Shown here in pieces: positions 16,118 to 43,599 of a DNA stretch of 64,000 nt (position 1 is its first letter; every line of letters starts with the position of its first letter). Location of the stretch: contig FO203512.1 of the NCBI GenBank assembly GCA_000967895.1, positions 3,123,350 to 3,187,349 on the forward strand. Direction: 5' to 3'. Source of the stretch: Oleispira antarctica RB-8. Its GTDB lineage: Bacteria; Pseudomonadota; Gammaproteobacteria; Pseudomonadales; Oceanobacteraceae. A program made the translations under genes and the position numbers. Under the pieces are notes generated by a model. That model ran no database searches and was not told the DNA's origin. It saw only the letters and a program-made list of their open reading frames with translations.

Positions 16118-16972
16118 TTAAGACTTGGGACTTACATCATCAATCAGCTGAATGAGATCGTTGATTTCGCCTTTTAAATACATCACTTGATTTTCGCTTA
16201 AGCTCGTTGTGATTTGTTGCAGCATACTCAATAACAACTGGCGATTATGTGGATAAGCATCTAACAAGGTATCAGACTTAAATTGATCAGGGTTATCCAT
16301 TATTTTAAACAACTGAATGAATAGTTCTTCTGTTAGCTCTGTATTAGTGCTGGATACAAACGCTTTTTTCATCGCCGCTTGCAGTTTAACATTACTATCA
16401 AACCATTCTTGTTCTGTTATTTTTGCCTGCTCAACAAAGATAGCGGCATAGATTTTCTGCTGCTTGTTTACCGAGCCTAGATAATTTTCTAACGTTTCCA
16501 GTAATCCTTCAAGCCTGTCTTCTCGGTATTGTTCGATCGTTTTTTCGTTAAAATCCTCTAGCCTTTCCTCGTTTCTCTCTTCCAGTTTTGAAAATAAATA
16601 ATTCACCTGGTATTGATCTAACTGGGGTGCAAGCATCGCGGCTCGAGTACTCAATTCACGTCGTAATCGCTGCCAATGATCCGTTATTTGATTAAAGTGT
16701 TTTAGCCAAACTTGTTCAGAAATAGGAAGATGATCAAGATCGTTTGATAACGCCACCAATTGCTGCCGGTACTGCAATAATTGCGTTTCTCGGTGCCACT
16801 TTAATACTGACTTTAACTCTATATCAAGATTACGATTTTGATCTCTCGACAAATCTACATAATCATCAATGTACCACTGGGCCAGCCAATCGGCATTATT
16901 GTAAGCCATCTTAGACGTGCACCCTTGTAAGAATGCACCTATTAACAATAAAACGATCAGCCTATATTTCAT
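16118..16972 (-). CDS. DUF6279 lipoprotein
   Basis: 284-residue lipoprotein with lipobox LQGC near residue 18 after a short hydrophobic signal. The mature part is largely helical and charged, with the NNADWLAQWYIDDYVDL start seen in DUF6279 proteins. Probably anchored to the outer membrane and facing the periplasm. The start is preceded by AGGG at good spacing, and 20 bases further upstream lies a 66-base ATT tract that separates it from hflX. Function unknown for the family. Confidence 0.8.
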   Translation of the reverse strand: MKYRLIVLLLIGAFLQGCTSKMAYNNADWLAQWYIDDYVDLSRDQNRNLDIELKSVLKWHRETQLLQYRQQLVALSNDLDHLPISEQVWLKHFNQITDHWQRLRRELSTRAAMLAPQLDQYQVNYLFSKLEERNEERLEDFNEKTIEQYREDRLEGLLETLENYLGSVNKQQKIYAAIFVEQAKITEQEWFDSNVKLQAAMKKAFVSSTNTELTEELFIQLFKIMDNPDQFKSDTLLDAYPHNRQLLLSMLQQITTSLSENQVMYLKGEINDLIQLIDDVSPKS

Positions 16973-16991
16973 TATTGACCCTAATCCACTA

Positions 16992-17058
<67 letters not shown>

Positions 17059-17065
17059 GTTATTG

Positions 17066-18412: not shown

Positions 18413-18771
18413 AGGGTGACTTCTCATGGGGTAAGGGCGCAGACTTTTAAAAATAGCGTCATACATAGTGCAGTGTACACCGCATCTTAGGCGAGCACCT
18501 AAATGTAGACGCAATCGCCCTTTTTAAGGACTATCTAAAATAAGTACGCAGCACGAAAACTCAAGTTAAAAGTGAATGTCCGACATTTTTATTTATACGA
18601 AATGTCAGCAAGTTCAACCTGCTGACAGATTATTTAAATACACAGTGCTATCTACTGGATGCTAATCGTGTAGATAACGAGGCGGTAGGAAAACCACATT
18701 AAAGTCAGCCATCCCTTACGCCTTCTTTCTAAATTTATTTACACACTAACGGAGTTTTTCAAGGTAGTTGT
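18413..18771. other. gene-less junction between hflX and the integron array end
   Basis: 359 bases with no convincing gene. It includes the hflX promoter side and a hairpin (18603-18627). It marks the distal end of the cassette array; a CTAACGG motif at 18746-18752 could be a relic of an attC end. Confidence 0.5.
18603..18627. terminator. 8-bp hairpin near the end of the cassette array
   Basis: TGTCAGCA (18603-18610) and TGCTGACA (18620-18627) form a perfect stem with a 9-base loop. No T-run follows on either strand, so terminator function is uncertain; it could close the leftward array transcript. Confidence 0.35.
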
Positions 18772-18825
18772 CGTGCTTAAAGCATGAGCGCAGTTTTTTC
18801 GCGTCCAATGCCTTTACTTGTTAAG
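18772..18825 (-). repeat. attC site J (distal, degenerate)
   Basis: Nearly identical to attC D (26037-26090): both carry CTTAAAGCATG-GCGCAG...CGCGTCCAATGCCTTTACTTGTTA. In this copy the terminal TAACGCT core is decayed to CGTGCT, so it is probably the fixed end of the array. It follows the 110-aa cassette gene. Confidence 0.8.
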
Positions 18826-18837
18826 TTTTTCCAATGC

Positions 18838-19170
18838 TCAAACAACATCGGGGTTATTTCCTGTTTGAATCATGACACTTGGATATTCTCGGGCTCTAAA
18901 TTCAAATACCACCATTCCACCTGAAGCGATCCAATCATCAGATGCTCTATCAGCTGGTATTTTAGAAACCGTATACTCAAGCCCATATTTATTTATTGCT
19001 TCAATCGCATTGGGGCTAAGTCCTTCACAATCATTCGAGTCAATTAAGAATGGATCGTCAAATTTCGAGTCGAACAATAGTCTTCGCCAAGAAGATACCT
19101 GACTTAAATCTATTATCTCCATCTCAAGCCAATAGCGATGAAGCTTCTTATTGATTCTACGTTTTCTCAT
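18838..19170 (-). CDS. cassette protein of unknown function, 110 aa
   Basis: Soluble protein with a basic start (MRKRRINKKLHRYWLEMEI) followed by an acidic, mixed alpha/beta body (FDDPFLIDSNDCEG). No signal peptide or membrane segment. The basic N-terminus faintly recalls YggL-type ribosome-binding proteins, but the match is too weak to call. Last gene of the integron, flanked by attC I upstream and attC J downstream. Confidence 0.65.
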   Translation of the reverse strand: MRKRRINKKLHRYWLEMEIIDLSQVSSWRRLLFDSKFDDPFLIDSNDCEGLSPNAIEAINKYGLEYTVSKIPADRASDDWIASGGMVVFEFRAREYPSVMIQTGNNPDVV

Positions 19171-19195
19171 ATGAATTTATAAACTTAACGCTAAG

Positions 19196-19271
19196 CTAAG
19201 CGAGAAAATACAGTTAGGCTAAACTGCGCGGAGCGCGAGCCAACTGTAATTTTTCCGTTTAAGCGCCTTGT
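19196..19271 (-). repeat. attC site I, split by the group IIC intron
   Basis: TAACGCT at 19196-19202. The stem arms GAAAATACAGTTAGGCT and AGCCAACTGTAATTTTTC face each other with single extrahelical bases, as in real attC sites. The site reads to CTTGT at 19271, where the intron begins; its last bases (TATG) lie at 21247-21250. Belongs to the HEPN-like cassette. Confidence 0.88.
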
Positions 19272-21246
19272 GTACGCCCAGCATGGGCATGAACTAATGA
19301 GGTGAAAGTCCTCTGTAGGAAGGTCACCATCCTTAGCGATTTTAATACCGCTATTAGATGTTAACTACTAGCGAATGGCAAGGGCTTAACTGCGAAGTTG
19401 GGTCTGGAGGGCGTAGCGCCGTGAATACCTACAACGGCTGGGATGGCGCTAGCAAAACTGCGAGCTGATGAACAAAAACATCATATGAGGCGTAGGCTGG
19501 AGGCGAGTTGGCACAAGACGACGAAGCCATGTGATCTAACGGCCACCGTAAATGATGCAGTTGCGCAGGGAAAGTTCATGTCCTTATCTGGGGAGATCTG
19601 CTTAACACGCGATCGGAAACTTAAACAGTTCTAAGCTACTGATTTAAACAGGCTTGGCAAACAGAATTCATCAAACTGTTTGAGCAAATACGATGAAACC
19701 GATAGCGCTGATATGGGTAACTATATCGGTGATTAAGCAGAAGTCAGCAGACGGCATAGTAGCCAAATGCACAGCGTAATGGCTGGGACACGGTGAAGGC
19801 CTGAACATTTAGAATAAAGGAGGAGCCTTGTCAGATTTGAACACACGAATACCGTCCGGTAATGACGTGACTCAGCATTTTAGCTTGCAGCCATCCTTTA
19901 GCGAAAATCTATTCGAACGCACTTTGCAGCGAGAAAATATTCAAGCTGCTTGGAAACGTGTTCGAGCTAACAAAGGAGCCGCTGGCCTCGATGGAATGAC
20001 CATCGAAGAGTTTCCTGACTGGGTAAAATCTGGTCAATGGGAACGAGTGACGCAAGAACTTAGATCAGGTATTTATAAACCTGATCCTGTTCGTCGCGTA
20101 GAAATTGAAAAGCCTGACGGTGGTATTCGTCAGCTTGGCATTCCTACGATTAAAGACCGCGTCATTCAGCAAGCGATTGCTCAAATACTCACGCCGATTT
20201 TTGATCCTACATTTTCCAATAATAGTTTTGGATTCAGACCGAACAGAAATGGGCAGCAAGCCGCTAAACAAGTACAAAGTATCATCAAGGAAGGCCGACG
20301 CTTTGCGGTTGATGTTGATCTGTCAAAGTTCTTTGATCGGGTTAATCATGATTTATTAATGACGCACCTAAGCTATAAAGTGAAGGACAAAGAGTTATTA
20401 AAATTGATTGCTAAATATTTGCGTGCAGGAGTTCTTTTAAATAGAAAGGGAGATAAGAATCACTTTGTAGAAAGCCGAGAAGGTGTTCCACAAGGTGGCC
20501 CACTATCACCTCTGCTCGCGAATATTATGCTCGATCCACTCGATAAAGAATTAGAAAGACGAGGTCATAAGTTTGCTCGCTATGCTGACGACTTTACCAT
20601 TTTGGTGAAAAGTAAGCGTGCTGGCGAACGTATCCTTAACAGCATTTCAAACTACTTAGAGCGTCGATTAAAATTAATCGTTAACAGTGATAAAAGTCGA
20701 GTAGTTAAAACTTCAGAAAGTAAATTTCTTGGTTTCACTTTTCGATCAGGACGAATTCAAATTCATCCGAAAACACTGCACCGATTTAAGGAACAAGTAC
20801 GACGTTTAACCAATCGTAATTGGGGCGTGTCGATGCGCTATCAGCTCTTTAAAACCAGTCAATATTTACGAGGCTGGATTAATTATTTTGGTATCGCTAA
20901 TTGCTATCAACTCTGCATGGATCTAGATCATTGGATTCGACGTAGGGTGCGAATGGCTTATTGGCGACAGTGGCGAAAGCCGCGTACTAAAGTAAGAAAT
21001 TTAATGAGACTAGGCGTTCGCGTTCAGGTTGCCGTTGGGTGTGGCATTACAAGTAAAGGCCCATGGCGTAGCTCTAAAACTCCGGGGATTAATCAGGCAT
21101 TATCAAATGCTTATTTAAAAACTGAAGGATTATATTCGTTGCGCGATGGATGGATTAAGCTTCACCATTCTAAGTGAAACGCCCTGTGCGGATCCGCATG
21201 CAGGGTGTTGTGGGGGCTGGAGGTTAGATACCTCCGGCTACCCGAT
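19272..21246 (+). mobile_element. group IIC-attC intron
   Basis: About 1975 bases inserted in an attC core. The 5' end GTACGCCCAGCATGGGC and the GAGGTGAAAGTCCTC hairpin are typical of bacterial class C introns. The 3' end carries domain V (near 21178-21209, CGCCCTGTGCGGATCC...) and a domain VI stem (GGCTGGAGG...CCTCCGGCT) ending CCCGAT. Excising 19272-21246 joins CTTGT to TATG, restoring the CTTGTTATG core seen in other attC sites of the array. It lies on the strand opposite the cassette genes, i.e. in the attC bottom strand, as known for this intron class. Boundaries come from this exon match. Confidence 0.9.
19828..21177 (+). CDS. ltrA: group II intron reverse transcriptase/maturase
   Basis: 449 residues. 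Reverse-transcriptase blocks are present: RVRANKGAAGLDGMTIEEF, GIPTIKDRVIQQAI, the catalytic YADDF (near 252), then the maturase domain X with LRGWINYFGIANCY. There is no C-terminal HNH endonuclease, which fits class IIC. Starts at TTG 19828 behind AAAGGAGGA at ideal spacing. The stop overlaps the edge of intron domain V. The frame is intact, so the intron may be active. Confidence 0.93.
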   Translation: MSDLNTRIPSGNDVTQHFSLQPSFSENLFERTLQRENIQAAWKRVRANKGAAGLDGMTIEEFPDWVKSGQWERVTQELRSGIYKPDPVRRVEIEKPDGGIRQLGIPTIKDRVIQQAIAQILTPIFDPTFSNNSFGFRPNRNGQQAAKQVQSIIKEGRRFAVDVDLSKFFDRVNHDLLMTHLSYKVKDKELLKLIAKYLRAGVLLNRKGDKNHFVESREGVPQGGPLSPLLANIMLDPLDKELERRGHKFARYADDFTILVKSKRAGERILNSISNYLERRLKLIVNSDKSRVVKTSESKFLGFTFRSGRIQIHPKTLHRFKEQVRRLTNRNWGVSMRYQLFKTSQYLRGWINYFGIANCYQLCMDLDHWIRRRVRMAYWRQWRKPRTKVRNLMRLGVRVQVAVGCGITSKGPWRSSKTPGINQALSNAYLKTEGLYSLRDGWIKLHHSK

Positions 21247-21923
21247 TATGAATACTTTTTAAGCACGGTATCTTTGCAGTTTTTAAAAAGTTCTTTAGCT
21301 AATTCAGGTACTGCTATAGAAGGATTAAATGTAGAATCTAATGTACCCAGAGGGTTTTGCATGTGACCAACCACAAAGTCCATTTCCATACTTAATAAGT
21401 ATAAGGCTTTCAGTGAGCTATGAAAATCTAATTCAAACTCCTCAGATCTTTTATCTTGTTTTTTAATAACTGCATACGGATCAGAACCGTTAAGTTCTTC
21501 AGATTTATTATGGACAAGCTTGTTTCTTGCGGAGACTAAAATTTTGAGAGCGTTGTATGCTGCACCTGATTTATCGAGACTCCTTTCACAAACTAATCTT
21601 GGTATTATGATCCATTTAGAAACTAAATCTAAACTAGCCAAATGTTGTTGGTAATATTTATCTCCAAGATGCTTACCAGCATAATTATTTATGGCTGATT
21701 CAATAGACATAGCAGCAAAAACAATAGCTTTGAGTGCAAAAGCCTTTGCTTTATTTTCTAGTTCATATATTTCGTTATCATCAAGAGAAAATTGATCAAT
21801 AGCTAGAACTTCTAAGCAGCTACAAAATTCTGTTTCAGCGATTTTAAAATAGGTTCCATACAAAACATTAGTTCTTGCAGAGGATTCTCTAGGATGAGGT
21901 ATATGGTTATGCTGACCGTTCAC
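21246..21923 (-). CDS. cassette protein with HEPN-like RNKLVH motif, 225 aa
   Basis: Mostly helical soluble protein. The segment ILVSARNKLVHNKSEEL (near 150) carries R-x4-H, the catalytic signature of HEPN ribonucleases, and an upstream helix contains MSIESAINNY, as in many HEPN-like proteins. HEPN domains are frequent in toxins and anti-phage proteins, but no antitoxin partner is next to it. Start is GTG 21923 behind GGGAAG. The stop TAA falls exactly on the intron junction: its first base (21248 on +) is exonic while the last T pairs with the intron edge, and intron excision still gives TAA. Confidence 0.7.
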   Translation of the reverse strand: MNGQHNHIPHPRESSARTNVLYGTYFKIAETEFCSCLEVLAIDQFSLDDNEIYELENKAKAFALKAIVFAAMSIESAINNYAGKHLGDKYYQQHLASLDLVSKWIIIPRLVCERSLDKSGAAYNALKILVSARNKLVHNKSEELNGSDPYAVIKKQDKRSEEFELDFHSSLKALYLLSMEMDFVVGHMQNPLGTLDSTFNPSIAVPELAKELFKNCKDTVLKKYS

Positions 21924-21950: not shown

Positions 21951-23763
21951 TGTAGAAAAATACGATATTTAGACATGCTTCCCTACTCCTCAAAAATTCC
22001 GTTTAATTTGCTCTGTTTTATTGAGCTTTATAATATATAAAGTGATATTCGAGCATATCGCTCATATTGTCAAACATGAGTTCAGACAGCTCTAGAATCG
22101 ACTGCTCAGAGCCCCTGATAACACTTACTAGGCCCAACTCTCTACTTCACTATTCTTCCAAAGCTTCTCTATATTGTGCACCATGCAGTACATTAGCCAC
22201 TGCGCGGTCGCTTTAGCTTCACCACGTAAGCCTATTCGGTTCAAACCTTTGTTACTTGTAATGTTTCCGAAGACAGGCTCAATCGTCCACATTCTTCGGC
22301 TGTACATACGACGACCTTCAGGACTATCAATTTTCTGTTTCATTAGATCCAGGCACGTTATTTTCTCCTGCCCATCATTTAAAAATGATACTTGCCTTCC
22401 TTTTTCTTTGACTGGATTTCTCATGCACTTCGATTGCATGCTGCAATTTCGACAATCTTCTAGCTCTCCACGAAAGCGAGTATAAAATCCTTTTACGCCT
22501 TCATAATCATCACCTAAAAACTTCAACTCTTTTCCCGCTGGACATATACAGGTGTTACTAGAAAAGCTAACTTTAAATTCTGAGCTATGCATAGCCATAT
22601 TAGTTTTTGCTTTATCTTTCCGGGTTTTTTTCCTTAACTCTTTGTGCTTCTTATAAAAGTCAGAATCAGAGAACACAGGATTACGTTTTCTAAACTGATT
22701 ATCAGGGACCACAGCATTAATCTTTTCATCAAACAAATACTGCATCGTAGCTTCACTTGAAAAACCAGTATCAGCAGTGAGAACTAAAGACGGCTTGAAA
22801 ATACCATCACCAAAGTTCTTCTTAATACCTTCAACCATGGGTTTTAATGTAGCCTGCTCTTGCCCCATACCAAAAGCTTGTGCATGAACAATGACCTGAT
22901 GCTTTTCATCTGCAGCAGTTACGCAAGCCATTCCCTGAATCGTTCCTTTACTCGTTGTCATTTTTGCAGATTGATTATCCGTAATATTGCTTTGTACTTC
23001 TTGCTTGCGCCTTCCTTGTCCCATACGAGGTTCATTCGTTGATAAGAAATCATCTATTTTCTTTGCGTTTTTCATCAAAGTGTCGATAGTCTGTTGTTGA
23101 TCAGCTGCGATATTATTGCCACCTCTTTTATCTGAATCATTCGACAAGTGTTTATCGATAATCTTTTGGGCAGCCTCTTTCAGTTTATCTGATTTTTTGC
23201 GGAGTTCTTTGTGTGTGCCGCTCCATTGCTTTGAAGCATTCGTCGGTAACTTACAACCATCAATCGCAAAATGCTCTTTACCGATTAATCCACTCTGGTC
23301 ACAAATAAGAAGTACCTTATGAAATAAACGACTCATTGCTTCACAATTTGAGCTCACGAAGTTAGCAATCGTTGTGAAGTGTGGCTGTCGGCCAGCGGCT
23401 AAAGCAATGAACTTTAAATCTGTTTTACATAAGCGTTCAATAACGCGACTCGAAGTATGCCCTCGATAGTAAGCATAAAATATTACCCGCAATAACAACG
23501 CAGGAGGGTAGGCTTTACGGCCGACGTTTTTGTTTTTGTAGCGAGCATAGAAGTCAGAAACGATCTCATCATTTTCGAGCAAGTGATAAAGGCAGTACTC
23601 GAAGGTATTGCTGCCTAGAACTTCTAAATAATTAATATCAAAGAAAACGCTTTGATTGAGATTGTCATCGAGGAAATTGGACATGAAATTATCAGGTAAA
23701 CGGCAAAGCGCTATTTTACCTGATTTATTGAGCTAGATTGAGGGGTTTTTCTATTTTTCTACA
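21951..23763 (-). mobile_element. IS1182-family insertion sequence
   Basis: 1813-bp element defined by terminal inverted repeats: TGTAGAAAAATA at 21951-21962 and its reverse complement at 23752-23763 (12 of 12 bases match, then diverge). It contains one transposase gene and about 177 bases of non-coding left end. Flanks are ATAACGAGGG on the left and GCCTGAACGCC on the right, i.e. attC-edge sequence; no clear target duplication is visible. Confidence 0.85.
22128..23684 (-). CDS. IS1182 family transposase
   Basis: 518 residues, full length. N-terminal DUF772-type region (YPPALLLRVIFYAYYRGHTSSRVIERL, about 60-90) and DDE domain (FAIDGCKLP about 138; LVLTADTGFSSEATMQYL about 300; a late EPVFGNITSNKGLNRIGLRG about 478). 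The cysteine cluster with CICPAGKEL and CRNCSMQSKCMRNP is usual for this family. The intact frame and matching end repeats suggest recent activity. Confidence 0.93.
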   Translation of the reverse strand: MSNFLDDNLNQSVFFDINYLEVLGSNTFEYCLYHLLENDEIVSDFYARYKNKNVGRKAYPPALLLRVIFYAYYRGHTSSRVIERLCKTDLKFIALAAGRQPHFTTIANFVSSNCEAMSRLFHKVLLICDQSGLIGKEHFAIDGCKLPTNASKQWSGTHKELRKKSDKLKEAAQKIIDKHLSNDSDKRGGNNIAADQQQTIDTLMKNAKKIDDFLSTNEPRMGQGRRKQEVQSNITDNQSAKMTTSKGTIQGMACVTAADEKHQVIVHAQAFGMGQEQATLKPMVEGIKKNFGDGIFKPSLVLTADTGFSSEATMQYLFDEKINAVVPDNQFRKRNPVFSDSDFYKKHKELRKKTRKDKAKTNMAMHSSEFKVSFSSNTCICPAGKELKFLGDDYEGVKGFYTRFRGELEDCRNCSMQSKCMRNPVKEKGRQVSFLNDGQEKITCLDLMKQKIDSPEGRRMYSRRMWTIEPVFGNITSNKGLNRIGLRGEAKATAQWLMYCMVHNIEKLWKNSEVESWA

Positions 23764-23766
23764 GCC

Positions 23767-23861
23767 TGAACGCCTCACTAAGAGGCAAAAAATAGTTGGT
23801 TAAAATAAGCGACGCAGGAGCAAAAACCAACTGTTTTTTGTCCTTTTGAGTGACTTGTTAT
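23767..23861 (-). repeat. attC site G
   Basis: Starts TGAACGCC and ends CTTGTTATG. Arms AAAAAATAGTTGGTT and AACCAACTGTTTTTT pair around a terminal loop. It follows the 258-aa cassette gene; the IS1182 end lies three bases from its GCGTTA-type edge. Confidence 0.85.
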
Positions 23862-27392: not shown

Positions 27393-27492
27393 GTAACGCT
27401 GAGCTCACGAGTTGACGAAAGTGGCAGTTCTTTTGCGTTTTTTTGCAAAAGAAGTGACGCTTTTGGCAATCTGAGTGCAGCGACTTGTTAGC
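27393..27492 (-). repeat. attC site A (integrase-proximal)
   Basis: GTAACGCT to GACTTGTTAGC, 100 bases. It contains TTCTTTTGCG...TGCAAAAGAA, a near-perfect inner stem. Its core overlaps the stop codon of the cytochrome b-like gene. Confidence 0.87.
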
Positions 27493-29179: not shown

Positions 29180-30145
29180 ATGTCTAAAAGTCCATTTCTC
29201 AATTCTATTCGTCAAAATATACGCATGCGAGGCTATAGTATGCGTACAGAAAAAACGTATCTCTACTGGATTCGTGATTACATTCGATTCCATCGTCTTC
29301 AACATCCAAAAGATCTTACAGGAGAACATGTAGTTGCTTTTCTTTCTTATTTAGCTAATCGACGAGATGTCGCTGTTAATACTCAAAGGACTGCTTTAAA
29401 TGCTTTGGCTTTTTTATATAACCAATTTTTAAACCAACCTCTCGGGGATTTGGGGTTCACTTATGCAAAGCGTCAGCGTCGTCTGCCTATTGTTCTCACG
29501 ATGCAAGAAGTTCAATTAATTCTGGACAATCTATCAGGCAGAGATAAGATAATTTTTTCTATTTTATATGGTTCCGGGCTAAGGATAACTGAGTGTTTGA
29601 GATTAAGAGTTAAAGATATCGATTTTCAACATGGGGGAATTACAGTACATGATGGTAAAGGTGGAAAAGACCGGCAAACAATTTTAAGCCCTTCTTTAAC
29701 TGCACCCATTCAGCAGTTAATTGAAAGTGCGATTAGCTTACAGCAGGAAGATAATAAACAAGGGATCGGCCCTTCTTTGCCCCACATGCTGGGTAAGAAA
29801 TACCCCAACGCTTTTCGCCAGCCAGCCTGGATGTTTATTTTTCCTTCCAGTGGTGTTTGTAAGCACCCGGTAACCGAAAAAACTTGTCGCCATCACCTAC
29901 ATGATTCGGTACCGCGCAAAGCATTACAGAAGGCTGTTCAAGCTTGTGGGTTAAACAGAAAAAAGATTAGCTGCCATACTTTCAGGCATTCGTTTGCAAC
30001 TCAGCTTTTACAAAATGGGCGTGATATTCGCACCGTGCAAGAGCTACTTGGACACACCGATGTGGCTACTACTCAGATTTATACCCACGTAATAGGCCAG
30101 CACTTTGCTGGCACCAGTAGCCCACTCGATAATCTTACGCTATAG
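29180..30145 (+). CDS. intI: integron integrase
   Basis: 321-residue tyrosine recombinase. The N-terminal SAM-like core-binding domain (1-95) contains MRTEKTYLYWIRDYIRFH. The catalytic residues are present: Arg in GSGLRITECLRL, HxxR in SCHTFRHSFATQLL, His/Trp-position in LGHTDVATT and Tyr in QIYTHV. The integron-specific extra domain is present (YPNAFRQPAWMFIFPSSG, about 208-226), which separates IntI from XerC/D. Preceded by AAAGG and, further up, a LexA box. It recombines attI and folded single-stranded attC. Intact, so the array may still exchange cassettes. Confidence 0.97.
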   Translation: MSKSPFLNSIRQNIRMRGYSMRTEKTYLYWIRDYIRFHRLQHPKDLTGEHVVAFLSYLANRRDVAVNTQRTALNALAFLYNQFLNQPLGDLGFTYAKRQRRLPIVLTMQEVQLILDNLSGRDKIIFSILYGSGLRITECLRLRVKDIDFQHGGITVHDGKGGKDRQTILSPSLTAPIQQLIESAISLQQEDNKQGIGPSLPHMLGKKYPNAFRQPAWMFIFPSSGVCKHPVTEKTCRHHLHDSVPRKALQKAVQACGLNRKKISCHTFRHSFATQLLQNGRDIRTVQELLGHTDVATTQIYTHVIGQHFAGTSSPLDNLTL

Positions 30146-43116: not shown

Positions 43117-43193
43117 TGGTGCGCTTGGTAGGAGTCGAACCTACGACCACCTGGTTCGTAGCCAGGTACTCTATCCAGCTGAGCTACAAGCGC
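43117..43193 (-). tRNA. tRNA-Arg(ACG), copy 3 in transcription order
   Basis: 77 bases including encoded CCA. Acceptor GCGCTTG/CAAGCGC, anticodon loop CTACGAA with anticodon ACG (A34 normally edited to inosine), T-arm GGTTCGACTCC. Identical to the two copies upstream. Confidence 0.97.
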
Positions 43194-43253
43194 ACTTCAA
43201 AACTTTTACTTTTTACTTCACGACAGGATTATTTATTACGAAGAATAAATAAA

Positions 43254-43330
43254 TGGTGCGCTTGGTAGGAGTCGAACCTACGACCACCTGGTTCGTAGCC
43301 AGGTACTCTATCCAGCTGAGCTACAAGCGC
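43254..43330 (-). tRNA. tRNA-Arg(ACG), copy 2
   Basis: 77 bases, identical to the flanking copies, CCA encoded. The spacers on both sides are near-identical (about 60 bases), so the unit repeats with a period of about 138 bases. Confidence 0.97.
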
Positions 43331-43391
43331 ACTTCAAAACTTTTACTTTTTACTTTTACGACAGAATTATTTATTACGAAGAATAAATAAA

Positions 43392-43468
43392 TGGTGCGCT
43401 TGGTAGGAGTCGAACCTACGACCACCTGGTTCGTAGCCAGGTACTCTATCCAGCTGAGCTACAAGCGC
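43392..43468 (-). tRNA. tRNA-Arg(ACG), copy 1
   Basis: 77 bases, identical sequence, CCA encoded. First of the three arginine genes, 41 bases downstream of tRNA-Ser. Confidence 0.97.
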
Positions 43469-43509
43469 ACACTGTGTTAACAACCATTTAATGCTTTACA
43501 ACATTAAAG

Positions 43510-43599
43510 TGGCGGAGAGGGAGGGATTCGAACCCTCGATAAGATTTCTCCTATACACCCTTAGCAGGGGCGCGCTTTCAGCCACTCAGCCACCTCTCC
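43510..43599 (-). tRNA. tRNA-Ser(GCT)
   Basis: 90 bases including CCA. Acceptor GGAGAGG/CCTCTCC, anticodon loop CTGCTAA with anticodon GCT, a long variable arm (GTGTATAGGAGAAATCTTATC) typical of serine tRNAs, T-loop GGTTCGAATCC. Reads AGC/AGT codons. Confidence 0.97.

Follow-up and report, generated by a model that had tools for sequence, protein, structure and literature searches.

Locus and integron setting

The window, a 64,000-nucleotide stretch of contig FO203512.1 from Oleispira antarctica RB-8, contains a group II intron inside a cassette recombination site (attC) of an integron. The features of the locus are as follows:

19272..21246, plus strand: group IIC-attC intron (1975 nt, GTACG...CCCGAT; conserved ends and Rfam matches)
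19183..19271, minus strand: larger portion of the split attC, from R' to L''; on the plus strand, the hairpin of the intron's 5' exon, with IBS1 = TTGT at 19268-19271
21247..21251, minus strand: remainder of the split R'' core; TATGA on the plus strand, 3' exon with IBS3 = T at 21247
19513..19516, plus strand: EBS1 (ACAA), placed by aligned intron heads and co-variation with IBS1
19828..21177, plus strand: reverse transcriptase (RT)/maturase of the intron (449 aa, YADD at 20581-20592, RVT_1 and GIIM domains)
21178..21209, plus strand: domain V (Rfam RF00029 and fold)
21211..21244, plus strand: domain VI (fold and sequence)
21246..21923, minus strand: cassette gene beside the intron, with a TAA stop that spans the intron 3' junction
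18838..19170, minus strand: next cassette gene past the split attC, with its own attC at about 18770-18825 (degenerate R')
29180..30145, plus strand: integron integrase IntI (TIGR02249, 387 bits, over the cut-off)

The integrase gene is the sole intI above the family cut-off in the whole 4.4 Mb genome and, together with the attC array, forms a chromosomal integron whose cassettes lie on the minus strand, from intI down to 18838. The attC sites were called by a strict core pattern and by eye; a scan using folds and loose cores was dropped as insufficiently specific. Eight attCs were identified, after the genes ending at 27488, 26391, 26080, 25312, 24787, 23868, 21246, and 18838. The attC after 21246 is the split one, that after 18838 has a degenerate R', and that after 23868 is followed by an IS1182 element. 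All eight carry TTGT/T in the bottom strand, and one is occupied.

Apparent insertions of IS1182-family elements at the attC R' core were noted in the window (22128-23771) and at L135/L029, L031, L041, L069, L107, L161, and L174. In eight distinct attCs, GTT is directly followed by (C/G)AGGCTGTAGA, mostly with IS1182-type transposase sequence next. Judged from this one element end, IS1182-family elements appear to insert at the R' core, and a literature search for insertion at this position found no paper. The window further contains a long trinucleotide repeat of the ATT/TAA type between two genes (16950-17060) and three tRNA genes with identical Rfam scores and a regular spacing of ~138 bases (43120-43599), with a fourth nearby. 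Two integrase-less cassette clusters are located elsewhere in this genome, far from the window intI (G000:C1:1768477-1773523 and 1872887-1887731).

Intron boundaries, ribozyme, and reverse transcriptase

The original prediction placed a group IIC intron at 19272-21246, and a complete intron with exactly these boundaries was recovered. By direct reading, the 5' junction is ...AAGCGCCTTGT/GTACGCCCAGCATGGG, with 19272 as the first intron base, and the 3' junction is ...GGCTACCCGAT/TATGAATAC, with 21246 as the last; the stretch 19260-21260 accordingly reads ...CCTTGT/GTACGCCCAGCATGGG ... CTACCCGAT/TATGAATAC.... Rfam identifies a group II ribozyme with D1-D4 and D5/D6, through matches to the D1D4 models RF02001/RF01998 (group-II-D1D4-3 at 19386-19582, 113 bits; D1D4-1 at 19706-19801, 64 bits) and to Intron_gpII (RF00029, D5/D6) at 21177-21246 (49 bits), the last of which ends exactly at 21246. 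Since dozens of relatives align from start to end over intron positions 1-1975, the boundaries are not due to chance. Domains V and VI fold as expected (z = -5.6), a check that had been proposed as a possible refutation. The 3' end ACCCGAU agrees with AXX(X)XRAY, with GAU as the RAY. The 5' end is GUACG instead of the textbook GUGYG, which counts against the group IIC-attC assignment; GUACG is common to relatives of the same clade.

The RT frame, which had been described as intact with a YADD motif, is indeed so. It starts with a TTG codon preceded by GGAGGAGCC and scores 409 bits with TIGR04416. Domain searches returned RVT_1 and GIIM only and no endonuclease domain, as in a class C RT/maturase, and the nearest solved structure by sequence is the GsI-IIC RT. 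The dN/dS ratio between this RT and the second genomic copy is 0.05, and on this sequence comparison the window RT is under purifying selection. A promoter scan of the intron found three outward promoters where 3.9 were expected, i.e., no excess over chance.

These features bear on whether the element could be a dead remnant whose ribozyme or RT is no longer functional. An IS66 element interrupts the second genomic copy. The window copy keeps every domain matched by Rfam, a D5/D6 that folds, an uninterrupted reading frame with YADD, and the low dN/dS, and we therefore regard loss of function as quite unlikely.

The split attC and the cassette stop codon

The intron splits the cassette attC at TTGT/T. 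As predicted from the excision of the intron, joining the flanks yields CTTGTTATG, which recurs letter for letter elsewhere in the array, in the three attCs near 23853, 26082, and 26386. The joined flanks also restore the attC hairpin. After joining, the bottom strand folds with -20.7 kcal/mol (z = -3.46), and the hairpin lies directly upstream of IBS1. The insertion is in R'' of the attC bottom strand and opposite to the cassette genes, which agrees with the predicted strand and with the orientation described for group IIC-attC introns (PMC7923331). EBS1, a tetranucleotide within GGCACAAGAC, pairs with the exon as had been anticipated: ACAA matches IBS1 TTGT at 4/4 positions, and this pairing co-varies across the family.

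The stop codon of the cassette gene at 21246-21923 reads TA/A across the junction both with and without the intron, confirming by direct reading of both versions that the TAA is preserved. The codon is kept because the A that follows TA on the cassette strand derives either from the final U of the intron or from the last U of TTGT. As the base is the same either way, any group IIC-attC intron in TTGT/TA retains a TAA. In 18 of the 45 relatives with a usable flank, an ORF of 60 codons or more ends in a TAA that straddles the junction, compared with 0 and 4 in the other two frames. The label "HEPN-like" given earlier to the cassette gene was not borne out, as no Pfam, NCBIfam, or PADLOC match was obtained. 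In another genus, L174 carries a 51% homologue of the gene; the attC at that locus is free of intron insertion, with the TAA inside R'' in the same register.

Relatives, co-variation, and empty sites

Full-length relatives with 70-91% nucleotide identity were found in many marine Gammaproteobacteria, and those carried by class 1 integrons on clinical plasmids have 70-76%. The 5' junction was TTGT in 57 of 63 readable copies, with TGGT (3), TTTG (2), and TTAT (1) in the others, and the 3' exon started with T in all 52 readable cases. Across 86 introns with 12 distinct EBS1/IBS1 combinations, the mean was 3.75 of 4 pairs compared with 2.56 after shuffling, and 0 of 2000 shuffles reached 3.75. 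The co-varying IBS1/EBS1 pairs are TTGT/ACAA, TGGT/ACCA, GCGT or ACGT/ACGT, ATAC/GTAT, and TTTG/CAAA.

Group IIC introns that target terminators share with the window intron a class C RT, a hairpin, and a short IBS1, and a few relatives with the same RT follow terminator-like hairpins with T runs (L043, L064). An ordinary terminator-targeting intron that struck this attC by chance, simply as a hairpin, is nevertheless highly improbable. Of the copies that combine a full RT with TTGT or TGGT (n = 55), 45 are preceded by an attC-type core and a complementary arm (attC score threshold set by us), and the RT clade of the window intron stands apart from most of the sampled terminator-type IIC introns. 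The latter belong to another clade with another EBS1, whereas the hairpin of the window intron is the attC itself.

Empty sites also bear out the predicted boundaries. A relative on a Providencia plasmid (L179), 75.7% identical over its full length, sits in the attC of catB3 and has the same ends as the window intron. It stops precisely at the stop codon of CatB3, and the window intron does likewise at the stop of its cassette. The joined flanks of the plasmid relative correspond to the uninterrupted catB3 attC, with a 100% match in hundreds of plasmids. For the window site itself, the cassette gene that could reveal an empty allele is absent from all five congeners searched.

The absence of the cassette from all five congeners is in line with the possibility that no insertion took place here and that the intron came with its cassette, by integrase recombination or by horizontal transfer of the array. 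In addition, the second copy in this genome is only 91% identical and about as distant as a Marinomonas copy, so the two genomic copies are not a recent pair. On the other hand, the attC whose R'' core contains the intron belongs to this very cassette, which means that insertion into this attC happened somewhere and that only place and time differ between the two readings. The intron may thus have arrived already within its cassette, an origin that we consider plausible but less likely than not.

Taken together, the sequence evidence makes it very probable that the intron in the window is a group IIC-attC intron, complete and probably active, which reached the R'' core of a cassette attC by retro-insertion and so came to lie in a chromosomal integron.

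A second lineage and doubly split attCs

Each of the two integrase-less clusters of this genome holds one intron of a second class C lineage, the RT of which is 45% identical to that of the window intron. These introns are co-directional with the cassettes and occupy the top strand of the attC, where they split R' at GGCGT/GTGTGCC...CCCGAT/TA. In a quick tree, relatives with at least 55% RT identity to the second lineage fall on one side of a branch (SH-aLRT 96). All those with a readable 5' junction, ~20 insertions (L130 10804-12659; L143-L148, L170, L172, L173, and L182-L191), are in the attC R' top strand; the junction is preceded by NCGT or GTGT, and EBS1 is ACGT. About nine copies occur in one chromosome (G071) and others in two class 1 integron plasmids; for one plasmid copy, the joined flanks match the uninterrupted aadA1 attC. 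The window intron thus differs from this lineage in strand (bottom versus top strand R') and in EBS1 (ACAA versus ACGT).

In the second of the two clusters, one attC carries both a bottom-strand intron, a 91% sister of the window intron, and a top-strand intron of the second lineage, 47 bases apart:

L029 9909-9972 (G000:C1, about 1882908-1882971), both strands: doubly split attC of this genome, with the bottom-strand copy broken by IS66

Four further doubly split attCs with differing sequences were found at L075, L087, L148, and L164, giving five in total, one of them in this genome. For L087 and L164, the EBS1 of the top-strand partner is unconfirmed.

The top-strand lineage may already be described in Quiroga and Centron 2009, reportedly a survey of target sites. 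Similar single cases are a IIC intron in the attC top strand of Enterobacter cloacae (Rodriguez-Martinez 2012, in the account given in PMC7923331) and a same-orientation intron in S. algae KC-Na-R1 (Shewanella; PMC9229058). Likened by description, these two resemble the second lineage (L029, L130) and not the window intron. According to the outline of the Leon-Roy model in PMC7923331, PMC8876359, and PMC3053210, cassette formation needs a free attC. Tentatively, and with considerable doubt, we suggest that two IIC lineages could be specialized on mirror halves of the attC: the first would use R'' of the bottom strand (EBS1 ACAA, TTGT/T), the second R' of the top strand (EBS1 ACGT, NCGT/T). Both could share one attC with their 5' ends facing the common hairpin, cutting the attC off from both cassettes and leaving an intron-flanked free attC as in that model. 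This mirror lineage and the attCs with two occupants are less known than the family of the window intron, and their role is one that we can only infer.

Discussion

The window intron belongs to a known family, of which it is an ordinary representative. It shares with the group IIC-attC introns (bacterial class C; S.ma.I2 and relatives) the kind of RT, the TTGT/T target in the bottom-strand R'', the orientation opposite to cassette transcription, and the hairpin of the 5' exon (PMC7923331). Compared with the plasmid-borne introns of this group, it is located in the chromosomal integron of a marine Oleispira, and nothing fundamental differs.

A retro-insertion of this kind would begin with binding of the intron RNA and the RT to the attC bottom strand while the latter is single-stranded and folded. 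The hairpin would be taken as the 5' exon structure, EBS1 (ACAA) would pair with IBS1 (TTGT), and reverse splicing would take place before the T. DNA copying would proceed without an endonuclease, probably primed by a replication strand. Splicing is expected from a bottom-strand transcript, the intron being antisense to the cassette transcripts, and the insertion would presumably damage the function of R''.

The window intron offers a chromosomal case, clean and intact, of a family well known from clinical integrons, and the shared base that keeps the stop codon gives a simple account of how the cassette gene escapes damage from such insertions. With the lineage on the opposite strand and the doubly occupied attCs, the choice of strand by EBS1 and hairpin becomes testable, as does the question of whether introns contribute to the transfer of attC sites from one gene to another.
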